DNA from: a virus
DNA length: 25,644 nucleotides
Virus record (IMG/VR): IMGVR_UViG_3300011420_000028
Coordinates: 1 to 25,644 of that record
Reading direction: 5' to 3' (one strand)
This document shows positions 13,968 to 20,660 of the stretch, in pieces. Both the position numbers and the translations under genes were made by a program. Position 1 is the stretch's first letter. Each line of letters opens with the position of its first letter. The notes beneath the pieces are model-generated. The model made no database searches and was not told where the DNA came from. It worked only from the letters and a program-made list of their open reading frames with translations.

Positions 13968-15800
13968 TTATTGCGGCCTTTGTGACCATAATGCTTTGAA
14001 GTAAATGATTAAACTACTTAATTCAAATGTTTCATTAATACTAGTCATGGAAAATTTAATAGCCATCTTTTCTGCTACATAATTAACTTTCCTTAGTATC
14101 TCTTTACCTGGTGTTGCTGTAACATTAAAATTAGGTGGATGAGTTATTACTGAATTATCTAATCCAGTCAATTCAACTTCAACAGAACCACTACCAATCA
14201 TTCTAACTATGAAAGCATTAAAATGATTAATTACCCCATTACTCTTATCTGGAGCTAATCCCATCTTTACATAATTCGTTATTACAGTTCCATTATCATT
14301 AATAAGTCCAACTGTTTGCTTATAAATGTTATCACCAGCTATCTTCAGAATTGGACTCTTACTTACTGTATCTATTAAGATACTAGTAGGAGCAAATGGA
14401 AATGCCCAGGGTGACCATTGTATTTTCTTATAATCTAATCCATCACTACAATCAGCAAAAAGTATATGTGATGGGTCTGTTGCTGCATCTAATGGAACGA
14501 GAACATATATATACTTATTGATACTATCATAAGCTACTTGTACTTTATGGAAATTGGCCTGATTGATTCTTTTCCATAATGCTTCTATTTTCCATGATAG
14601 TTCGGGCACCTGAAATGAACCGTTAAATAGTATAAGGCCGCCCCGACTAGCTATAAAGAATACATCAGTGCTAGTACCACTCTTATCTAATATACTACTA
14701 ATGCCATGAACTTCAGTACCAATTCCAGGGTCTAATGATATTGGGTCCCATGTATTAGGACTATCACCATTATCAGATGTAACATAGGACATTAGAGATT
14801 TAGTAAATCCTAGTAAATCTCTATGTTCAACAGCATTAGTGATGCCTAGTCCATCTTCAGGACCAATTATCATAGCACTATCAGCTTCATCAAATACTTC
14901 TGGTTCATTTTTAGTTGATAAACGTACTAGAAATTGATTCTCATCAAAATTAGCCATTCCTAATCGCCCCTTGTAAGTAAATAATACTAAACAAGAGGGC
15001 AATTCAGTTAAAATGTAAAATAGATATAATGCATCGGCTGATAATTCGCTGTCATAAAAGTTAACAGTAAGTGGTAGGTCAGAATTATTATGAATAGTCC
15101 CATTAGGAACAAAAAACCATTCTTGACCAAATTGATTACCATTATAATCGGCTATTGCACGTGTGGCAATTACGTGTTTTCTAACTGTACCAGCAGGACC
15201 ATTAGGTATTGATAGGTCAACTTTTTTGGTACCGTCAGCAACAACGAATGGGAATGTAACTGGGCCGGGCTTAGTTAAAAATCCACTAGCTGTTTCATAT
15301 ACAACAGCGAATAAATGAGTACCAGCCTCAACAATACCAGTAGTAGCACTATTAACAGCAGTAAATGCACCTGTAGGAGCTATACCTGCTGCGGCTCTTA
15401 TAGTAGTGCCATCCCATACATAAACTTTTTCACCTGGTAAACCCTTGATTCCGTTATGTGGACTTATATAAATTCTGTTATAAACATTTATTGCACTGAA
15501 ATCTGTCATTGCTGCGATAGTAAGAATAGGTACACCTAAATTAGTACTATCGTATAAATTGCCACCCGCTTTAAGTATTAAATCTCGTGATGCCTCACCA
15601 ATTCGTTTATAACTATGAGTACGTAATACATTTCCTGATGCGAGTGTTTGTTCTAATCCATCTCTTGTTTTAACACCATTATCAGTAAATTGCATATTTA
15701 AGCAATCCTGAAAATGGTCTGGTGGACAAGAATCATTTGTGCCTCTATCCCAGAGTCCTTTGAACTTTCTGATGAGATATGGCTGATATTCTTCAAACAC
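13968..15800 (-). CDS. Tail nozzle/stabilisation-like protein
   Basis: A 610-residue beta-rich protein with the features of podovirus nozzle proteins (P22 gp10, T7 gp12 type): an N-terminal FKGLWDRGTNDSCPPDHFQDCLNM segment with DNGVKTRDGL, followed by repeated beta-propeller-like blades (GEKVYVWDGTT, YKGRLGMANFDEN, DVFFIASRGGLILFNG, YDSINKYIYVLVPL). These proteins close the head and form the tail tube end. Translation begins at GTG 15800, with GAGG 9 bases upstream, inside the last codons of the endonuclease VII-type gene. The original ATG seems to lie at 16222, cut off by the inserted gene. P22 gp10 is shorter and T7 gp12 longer. Confidence 0.6.
   Translation of the reverse strand: MFEEYQPYLIRKFKGLWDRGTNDSCPPDHFQDCLNMQFTDNGVKTRDGLEQTLASGNVLRTHSYKRIGEASRDLILKAGGNLYDSTNLGVPILTIAAMTDFSAINVYNRIYISPHNGIKGLPGEKVYVWDGTTIRAAAGIAPTGAFTAVNSATTGIVEAGTHLFAVVYETASGFLTKPGPVTFPFVVADGTKKVDLSIPNGPAGTVRKHVIATRAIADYNGNQFGQEWFFVPNGTIHNNSDLPLTVNFYDSELSADALYLFYILTELPSCLVLFTYKGRLGMANFDENQFLVRLSTKNEPEVFDEADSAMIIGPEDGLGITNAVEHRDLLGFTKSLMSYVTSDNGDSPNTWDPISLDPGIGTEVHGISSILDKSGTSTDVFFIASRGGLILFNGSFQVPELSWKIEALWKRINQANFHKVQVAYDSINKYIYVLVPLDAATDPSHILFADCSDGLDYKKIQWSPWAFPFAPTSILIDTVSKSPILKIAGDNIYKQTVGLINDNGTVITNYVKMGLAPDKSNGVINHFNAFIVRMIGSGSVEVELTGLDNSVITHPPNFNVTATPGKEILRKVNYVAEKMAIKFSMTSINETFELSSLIIYFKALWSQRPQ
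15792..15799. repeat. 8-base direct repeat, nozzle-side copy
   Basis: TTCAAACA on the + strand. It matches the copy at 16214-16221 and lies at the start codon of the nozzle-like gene (GTGTTTGAA on the minus strand). The two copies flank the endonuclease VII-type gene and look like the footprint of its insertion. Confidence 0.55.
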
Positions 15801-16197
15801 GAATTAATGCCTCAAAAAGATAGTCAATAGCTTTTTGTAACAATATAGGATTATCTTTAAAAAATCCTAAACCAGTATTACAATTAAAACACAGCAAACC
15901 ACGAACTATATTTTCTTTATGGCAATGGTCTAAATTTAATTTTTCAAAAAATTCACCACAAATCTTACACTTACCTTCTTGTTCTTTATATAGATTGTTA
16001 TATACTTCTATATCTATACCATAATAATCTTTAAAATGTTTTATTCTATTTTGTTCAGGAGTTCTTTTAGTTGAAGAAGATTGATTATAACATAATTTAC
16101 ATTGGGATTTGGGTCTATTGTCCAAACCTATATTTCTTACTGAAAAATCTGAAATAGGTTTTTCTATTTTACATTTATTACAAATTTTAGTATTCAT
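15793..16197 (-). CDS. Endonuclease VII-type HNH endonuclease, probably a homing element
   Basis: A 134-residue protein from ATG 16197. The N-terminus has a zinc-ribbon pattern (C6, C9, C33, C36). The catalytic part has C77/C80, then LDHCHKENIVRGLLC with D90-H91 and H93, then C103/C106 and NCNTGLG. This is the recombination endonuclease VII signature (zinc plus HNH, cuts DNA at junctions or mismatches); free-standing phage members often act as homing endonucleases. A TTG at 16218 would add seven residues, but the ATG is more likely; AAAGGGA lies about 12 bases before it. The gene sits exactly between the Ala-rich structural gene and the nozzle gene, overlapping the GTG of the latter by 8 bases. 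Confidence 0.85.
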   Translation of the reverse strand: MNTKICNKCKIEKPISDFSVRNIGLDNRPKSQCKLCYNQSSSTKRTPEQNRIKHFKDYYGIDIEVYNNLYKEQEGKCKICGEFFEKLNLDHCHKENIVRGLLCFNCNTGLGFFKDNPILLQKAIDYLFEALIRV

Positions 16198-16213
16198 ATA
16201 GACCCAAATCCCT

Positions 16214-16221
16214 TTCAAACA
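16214..16221. repeat. 8-base direct repeat, distal copy
   Basis: TTCAAACA on the + strand, paired with the copy at 15792-15799. On the minus strand it reads TAATGTTTGAA: the TAA stop of the Ala-rich structural gene overlaps an ATG, followed by the same TTTGAA codons as the nozzle gene's N-terminus. Confidence 0.55.
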
Positions 16222-18032: not shown

Positions 18033-18578
18033 TTATCCTTTGAATATAGGTCCATTTAAGAAAACGGGTTTAACGAAATTAACGTATTGATTATTCATAT
18101 CTAATACGCTGCCTTCATCTACACCTAATATCTCGTCCATCTCTTTAATATCAGCATCTAATTGAGCCTGTTCCTCAGCTTTGAAATTTCGCTTAATAGT
18201 TTCTCTTATACCATTCAATTTGCATTCAACTACATGTTCAACTGCTTGCCATATGGGATAAAGAGGATTCTTATCTTTATCCATAAATGTCCATAATGGT
18301 TCATATGAATCTCTTATAAATGGTCTATCAGGAAATGTGCCATAATCAAAAAATTTCAATTCCTCAAGTACATGTTTACCTTTGATATATTCATATTTCT
18401 TGCAATATCTATATTCACGTGTTTCTTTCAAATATATTTCGCCTAGATGGACCACAAAATCTTCGTATCGGTTTTCATATTGCGTATCTGAAAACACAAC
18501 ACGGAAATTTGGTCGACCATCCAAACTAAGGCCGTACTTTTCAGCTAATCTTTTGTTTATTACTTTTAACGATTCCAT
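18033..18578 (-). CDS. Conserved head-module protein, unknown
   Basis: A 181-residue protein beginning MESLKVINKRLAEKYG, with a mixed alpha/beta core (PNFRVVFSDTQYENRYEDFVV, then aromatic-rich DSYEPLWTFMDKDKNPLYPIW) and a Glu/Asp-rich helical end. I see no catalytic or metal motif. There is no SD before ATG 18578; the sequence upstream is AT-rich and directly follows a strong hairpin, so its translation may be controlled by that RNA. It lies between the capsid gene and the adaptor, suggesting a head-completion role. Confidence 0.6.
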   Translation of the reverse strand: MESLKVINKRLAEKYGLSLDGRPNFRVVFSDTQYENRYEDFVVHLGEIYLKETREYRYCKKYEYIKGKHVLEELKFFDYGTFPDRPFIRDSYEPLWTFMDKDKNPLYPIWQAVEHVVECKLNGIRETIKRNFKAEEQAQLDADIKEMDEILGVDEGSVLDMNNQYVNFVKPVFLNGPIFKG

Positions 18579-18593
18579 AAATTTTAATTATAT

Positions 18594-18640
18594 GAGGATG
18601 ATGCCCAGAGGCTCCCCCCAGCTTTTTAGGCACCACCCTC
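18594..18640 (-). other. Strong RNA hairpin H2 before the 18578 gene
   Basis: On the minus strand GAGGGTGGTGCC (5' arm) pairs with GGCATCATCCTC (3' arm): 12 pairs, two of them G-U. The loop of 23 bases holds a small inner GCU/AGC stem around GGGGGG. On the + strand the two wobble positions become A-C mismatches, which points to a role in leftward RNA. No U-run follows, so it is not a standard terminator. It ends 15 bases before an ATG that lacks an SD. Confidence 0.6.
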
Positions 18641-18645
18641 ATAAT

Positions 18646-18702
18646 GGTTGCTAATATATGAACTCTCTGGTCGTTTGGAGGACCGAGATATACTAGCTAA
18701 CC
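18646..18702 (-). other. Long bulged RNA hairpin H1 after the capsid/HNH genes
   Basis: A 57-base fold on the minus strand. Pairs are GGTT/AACC, (1-base bulge) GCTA/TAGC, one G-U, TATAT/ATATA, CTC/GAG and GGTC/GACC, separated by two 3-base bulges (TTC and AGA) on the 3' side, with an 8-base loop. In total 21 pairs. It begins 7 bases after the stop of the broken endonuclease gene and is followed 5 bases later by H2. No U-run follows. A possible RNA-processing, stability or attenuation element. Confidence 0.6.
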
Positions 18703-18709
18703 AGTCTCA

Positions 18710-19199
18710 TTAATTAACATCTTTACTTATAAATTTTTCATTTTGTATAGCGAAGGCTTCTTTTACTCTGGCTTTATGTTTTTTATCTCTATCTTTAAGA
18801 CAAATTCTACATGACCTATTACCATTTGGTCTAATATAAGTATTTTCTTCTGTAAATTCGTGTCCGTTTACGCAATGAGTTACACCAGAATATCTACCAC
18901 GGCCATTTCTAAGTGTTGAAATATCTTGAGAATTTTCATAATACGTACCTATATAAATATGTTCTGGATTCCAACAATTTTTATTAGGACATATTAGTTT
19001 TATGACAGACTACAAAATCAGCGCTATTTTCATAACCTAAAAATAGTTTAGCTGATAATACATGAACATAATGAAACATATAATCTATTTGAATTTGACC
19101 ATAACCATCTAAATTTGTACCTAAATATAGCCAACAACCTGTAGAGGAGTCAATTGATGTTCGCTTATCAAGAATTTCCTTTATTCTTTTTACGTCCAT
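18710..19199 (-). pseudogene. Frameshifted HNH homing endonuclease
   Basis: The first frame runs from ATG 19199 (GAGGAG about 9 bases upstream) to a stop at 18984: GCWLYLGTNLDGYGQIQI ... DFVVCHKTNM, a typical HNH_3 start. The rest of the protein continues in another frame from 18991 to a stop at 18710: CPNKNCWNPEHIYIGTYYEN, then a second Cys cluster (HCVNGHEF ... CRIC). Joining the frames without the 7 bases at 18992-18998 gives HKCPNKNC.NPEH, the family's canonical catalytic and zinc motif. So the gene is broken in the middle of its active site, by a recent mutation, a sequence error or frameshifting. Free-standing homing endonucleases of this type are common beside capsid genes. Confidence 0.75.
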
Positions 19200-20543: not shown

Positions 20544-20660
20544 TTTATACTCGTTTCTTAACTAACTAATCAGCTCCTTATATGTTTATATATCATTATG
20601 TTTTGCTTTATCATTATGTTCAGCAGCCCACGCTGATTTAAGGCTTTTTAACTATAATGA
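20544..20660 (-). promoter_or_regulatory. Capsid-gene leader with mini-ORF and distant SD
   Basis: The longest gap between intact genes in the late cluster apart from the HNH/hairpin region. It holds a 14-codon frame on the minus strand (20570-20614, MIKQNIMIYKHIRS) whose end carries AAGGAG (20574-20579), a 12-base tandem repeat, an inverted copy of the repeat core near 20654-20661, and a short CAGC/GCTG hairpin. I see no clear -35/-10 promoter. It may control high-level capsid translation or carry a late promoter of unfamiliar type. Confidence 0.4.
20591..20620. repeat. 12-base direct repeat in the capsid leader
   Basis: TATCATTATGTT occurs at 20591-20602 and 20609-20620, an exact copy with an 18-base period. 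On the minus strand each copy contains an in-frame ATG of the mini-ORF. The inverted core ATAATGAT occurs at 20654-20661. It could be a protein-binding site or a repeated promoter element, although AT-rich sequence makes chance partial matches likely. Confidence 0.55.

Follow-up and report, generated by a model that had tools for sequence, protein, structure and literature searches.

Hairpins behind the capsid gene of an IMG/VR virus as probable 3' punctuation of the capsid mRNA

Introduction

Two adjacent RNA hairpins lie downstream of the capsid gene and ahead of the next head gene in the IMG/VR virus record IMGVR_UViG_3300011420_000028, and they raise the question of what such an element could do in the middle of a structural operon. 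The whole record of 25,644 bases, possibly a genome fragment, was analyzed and is referred to here as the window. An original prediction had offered four mechanisms, namely an RNase III site, an attenuator, a 3'-end stabiliser, or a protein-binding translational switch. The hairpins were compared with those of relatives that have a similar capsid protein.

Results

The locus and its genes

The leftward gene order is terminase, portal (assigned from its size and order), an unnamed 451-aa protein, the capsid protein, and a 181-aa protein (Table 1). The terminase is distantly related to the terminases of Pelagibacter phage HTVC033P and Arthrobacter phages. Searches against named phages with the capsid and portal proteins of the window gave no match for either, and alignment of the capsid protein against prokaryote genomes gave no relative. 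The capsid protein is identified through its predicted structure, on which the identity rests. An earlier prediction based on 7 sequences was too poor, but a model built from 23 relatives was usable (mean pLDDT 61). This model matched HK97-fold capsid proteins, including phage capsids in the PDB, and the predicted major capsid protein of Arthrobacter phage Jasmine was among its best matches (E 1.1e-17). The expected location of the hairpins after the capsid gene was borne out. An endonuclease VII-like gene was also observed inside the structural operon.

Table 1. Coordinates of the features discussed in the text (window unless another sequence is named)
Feature	Position	Strand	Remarks
H1	18645..18703	-	14-15 bp outer stem and short inner stems, loop CUCCAAAC
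H2	18591..18643	-	15-17 bp stem (UAUGAGGGUGGUGCC / GGCAUCAUCCUCAUA), G-rich loop
Major capsid protein, 430 aa	19251..20543	-	HK97-type fold by structure comparison
Next head-region gene, 181 aa	18033..18578	-	No Shine-Dalgarno (SD) sequence
Inserted HNH endonuclease gene	18710..19199	-	Frameshifted near 18985; not part of the hairpin element
Likely H-type pseudoknot	20618-20652; L013 2899-2943; L014 2886-2930; L042 2882-2926; L016 2876-2918	- (window)	
AT-rich motif region	20544-20600	-	
Small genes, candidate decoration proteins	L014 4679-4966; L042 4432-4719; L031 4356-4718; L033 4268-4618; L034 4279-4638		
Endonuclease VII-like gene	15793-16218	-	PHROG 2633, E 2e-37

The stretch that holds the hairpins had been described as gene-free, which is incorrect, as a frameshifted HNH endonuclease gene adjoins H1. 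Its reading frame runs from 19199 to 18984, continues in another frame to 18710, and ends a few bases before H1. It takes up the interval from the capsid gene to H1, so that the capsid stop is ~550 nt away from H1. In L013 (a contig shared with L005) there is no HNH gene and the hairpins begin 5 nt past the capsid stop, while in L012 (a contig shared with L004) and L004 the HNH gene is mostly deleted and, in L004, the hairpins are kept. Since L013 lacks the gene and L012 has lost most of it, the hairpins are older and the HNH gene was inserted. L004 has a ~460 bp deletion within the gene, and L003, which is 99.9% identical, has the same frame break; the gene is thus a decaying insert adjoining the capsid gene.

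The position of the HNH gene directly ahead of H1 could suggest that the hairpins are the remnant of a mobile element, such as an intron or HNH-associated DNA, that no longer has a function. However, the presence of both hairpins in L013, their survival in L004, and the selection on the stems described below make this idea hardly credible, and the relatives that lack the HNH gene largely refute it. A group I intron or another HNH-linked element was rejected on the same ground.

Two strong hairpins on the leftward strand

Both predicted hairpins were found on the leftward strand. The whole hairpin region has a minimum free energy of -57 on this strand, compared to a mean of -35.9 in shuffled sequences (z -6.1; 0 of 200 shuffles as low), and folds less well on the + strand (z -3.9). 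In 70-nt windows it is the strongest - strand fold of the 25.6 kb record, with 0 of 5075 windows elsewhere as low, and in a survey of 80-nt local folds over the record H2 was in second place. The genome-wide rank of the fold energy is not decisive alone, because in GC-rich genomes the coding DNA folds equally well. The hairpins fold as described. H1 has 22 pairs when the bulge and inner loops are counted, one of them G-U, and H2 has 15 contiguous pairs from its base, or 17 by stem scan, two of them G-U. They are separated by about 1 nt and not by 5 bases.

The hairpin is conserved at the capsid boundary

Relatives of the capsid protein were gathered by protein alignment, and 22 of them have the complete gap up to the next gene. 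A hairpin is present at the same boundary in 21 of the 22 and therefore is not due to chance; in most, it ranks first or close to first among the folds of the locus. L032 has a complete gap and no hairpin, and the hairpin of L015 is weak. H2 is the one conserved family-wide, while H1 is kept in the closest relatives; L014 and L042 have a first hairpin comparable to H1, and most relatives have a single hairpin. In most stems the 5' arm is rich in purines and in G (GUAGGGUGG-like), and the 3' arm is rich in C. The C-terminus of the capsid protein is conserved and, in the relatives, is encoded directly 5' of the hairpin region; homologues of the 181-aa gene come after the hairpin in nearly all of them, and the hairpin is equally close to the next start codon and to the capsid stop.

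Small genes (about 95-120 aa) were observed between the capsid and 181-aa genes on either side of the hairpin. In L033 and L034 the small gene directly follows the capsid gene and precedes the hairpin and the next head gene; in L014, L042, and L031 the hairpin stays beside the capsid gene, with the small gene downstream.

Of 96 other same-strand gaps in the related genomes, with genes called by simple ORF picking, 27 also contain strong hairpins; therefore, the element is not peculiar to the capsid gene. Hairpins occur most regularly at the capsid boundary, but not only there. A DNA similarity search of the hairpin region in named phages returned chance matches only, and pattern scans of viral contigs with the H1 loop region and the hairpin of the GC-rich clade returned the known relatives and a chance coding match (L074). 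The view that the hairpins belong to no known RNA family agrees with a scan of Rfam (release 15), in which no family exceeded the gathering threshold.

Pairing is conserved, with selection on the leftward RNA

The compensatory changes that were proposed as a check were found both between the window and L013 and within a GC-rich clade. When 30 outer pairs of the window were compared with L013, 29 were still paired, four had changed on both sides, and G-U pairs of the window had become G-C or A-U; 6 of 500 shuffles were as good. For H2 alone, the simulated chance that all pairs are kept is 0.003. In the GC-rich clade (L017, L018, L019, L023, and L041), whose stems were aligned by hand because MAFFT failed to register the two arms across clades, all 69 cells are paired and 7 of 14 columns show two-sided change, with 0 of 20,000 shuffles as good. 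These shuffle counts ignore the kinship among the sequences and are not probabilities.

The original prediction had noted that the wobble pairs are G-U on the leftward strand only. This asymmetry is real. In 20 of 22 gaps the fold of the coding strand is better than that of the complementary strand, and the stems of the GC-rich clade contain 14 G-U and no A-C; thus, the wobble argument was confirmed on further sequences. Together with the covariation, the strand bias upholds the proposed selection on leftward RNA. Covariation across this uncultured phage group shows that selection maintains the pairing of the post-capsid hairpin rather than its sequence.

Most hairpin tails, including those of the window, lack a U-run

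The prediction that neither hairpin is followed by a U-run held for the window. A U-run is absent behind H1 and H2 and in 17 of 21 hairpin tails overall, the tail length of 10 nt being our choice, and L026, L035, and L040 have four U in a row. The window hairpins do not show the combination expected of an intrinsic terminator, a GC-rich stem with a U-run at once after it, and a simple terminator scan of the window did not list the site. Because neither the window nor most relatives have the U-run, the hairpins are unlikely to be a simple intrinsic terminator here. The comparison also covered cultured or complete phages whose capsid protein is structurally similar, or is a sequence relative of such a protein. 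At this position a U-tailed, terminator-like hairpin was found in Arthrobacter phages Jasmine, Adat, and Casserole and in podovirus record ctEqG8, and a U-less hairpin in Microbacterium phage Shocker and in ctLwi270.

These observations bear on the proposal that the hairpins are a partial terminator, at which the polymerase pauses or ends so that only some transcripts go on. In T7 a terminator of this kind follows gene 10: a hairpin directly behind the major capsid gene and before genes with lower expression, which has a U-run and stops T7 RNA polymerase. The U-tailed hairpins of the distant cultured relatives, and the four-U tails of three capsid relatives, speak for an attenuator. Its weak point is the missing U-run in the window, as well as the result of the terminator scan. 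Moreover, U-tailed hairpins occur in other gaps of related genomes (G003 7123 and G005 47141), so these phages can carry proper terminators. An attenuator is thus considered rather unlikely for the window.

Translation and loop-loop contacts

The gene that starts at 18578 indeed has no SD, although many other genes of the record have one, and the end of H2 lies 12 nt before its start codon. Because of this short distance, an effect on translation of the SD-less gene is possible: the hairpin could cover the ribosome landing site, and translation could be low or coupled to that of the upstream gene. The distance is about 3-15 nt in most relatives, and an SD-like GGAG is present just 5' of the hairpin in L013, L016, and L030. 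However, L014, L042, and L031, which have an inserted gene, keep the hairpin at the capsid stop, far from the start of the 181-aa gene, and in the GC-rich clade an AGG lies between the hairpin and the start codon. Control of translation is accordingly judged unlikely.

The loops could also meet. The H1 loop (UCCUCC) may kiss the H2 loop (GGGGGA) to form a compact tertiary element that acts as a protein- or ligand-binding switch. A 7-bp loop complementarity is found in the window and L013 although the stems vary, and shuffled loops match it in 2.8% and 0.6% of trials. Only two distinct sequences have this feature and the paired loop parts are identical in both, so there is no covariation for the contact; L014 and L042 lack matching loops and most relatives have one hairpin only. 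Such a switch is highly doubtful.

Structures upstream of the capsid gene

A likely H-type pseudoknot was observed just past the stop of the gene that precedes the capsid gene in five distinct relatives, and it is possibly more interesting than the post-capsid hairpins. It has two stems of four pairs with the core AGCGAA-CACUUAAAA-CCG-UGGUG-CGGGCU; all 40 cells are paired, 5 of 8 columns show two-sided change, and 1 of 20,000 shuffles was as good, with the stems registered by hand. The pseudoknot had no match in Rfam and was not seen in the GC-rich clade, where the gap is too short. A recurring AT-rich motif like TATATAAACATATAA is located 30-45 nt before the capsid start in the window, L013, L014, L042, and L016 and could be a capsid promoter. 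In the AT-rich clade, a pseudoknot ahead of the capsid gene and kissing hairpins behind it might together form a phage-specific module for stability or autoregulation of the capsid mRNA, but we regard this as very unlikely.

Discussion

Of the four mechanisms offered for the hairpins, the 3'-end stabiliser or processing site fits best, and no evidence favored the protein-binding switch. We consider it somewhat probable that the hairpins are 3' punctuation of the capsid mRNA, of the stabiliser or processing type known from SRPS operons. They would fold within the leftward polycistronic transcript and most likely block 3'-to-5' exonucleases; they may also mark an endonucleolytic cut site, and a double-stranded stem of about 15-20 bp would suit processing by RNase III. 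The capsid cistron would then outlast the later genes. We propose that protection of the 3'-end, perhaps with cleavage, lets the capsid protein be made in excess, in larger amount than the products of those genes. The analysis shows the structure, strand, and position of the hairpins, their conservation, and their covariation; the effects on RNA stability, cleavage, and expression are what we infer. The post-capsid hairpin is real but a fairly ordinary RNA "full stop", which probably protects the capsid mRNA and lowers later expression.

Stem-loops at the 3' ends of strongly expressed genes in clostridial operons set transcript ratios (PMC4423207, PMC8219983). In these operons a stem-loop is classed as a stabiliser if its U content is 5 or less and its U run is 3 or less, and in a reporter test a U-less stem-loop raised the ratio of upstream to downstream transcript (PMC8219983). 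By this rule H1 and H2 of the window, and 17 of 21 tails overall, would be classed as stabilisers. Two further marks of an SRPS stabiliser, a stable stem-loop in the gap after a gene within the operon and orthologous counterparts in the corresponding gap of related operons, were also found.

In distant relatives this site has a U-tailed hairpin that would also terminate transcription, so it appears to serve for stepping expression down after the capsid gene. Some phages may do this through termination, and this one through stabilisation or processing. On the best reading, a punctuation hairpin and a terminator would be interchangeable in evolution. Phages with similar capsid proteins have either a U-tailed or a U-less hairpin at this place, and these hairpins form a natural series for apportioning the post-capsid step in expression between termination and mRNA stabilisation.

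The window hairpins are located between the capsid gene and the next genes like the T7 terminator, and unlike it they lack a U-run. They share with the hairpins of Jasmine, Adat, and Casserole the place after a major capsid protein of matching predicted fold, the purine-rich 5' arm, and a 14-15 bp stem, although the latter are U-tailed and so terminator-like, the downstream gene differs, and the capsid sequences are too distant for BLAST. In comparison with SRPS stem-loops, the element belongs to a phage, and the window and its closest relatives have two tandem hairpins. In other respects it resembles those of SRPS operons: a very stable stem-loop without a U-tail lies in an intra-operon gap, 3' of a gene whose product has to be made in excess, and its position is conserved in related operons while its sequence changes.
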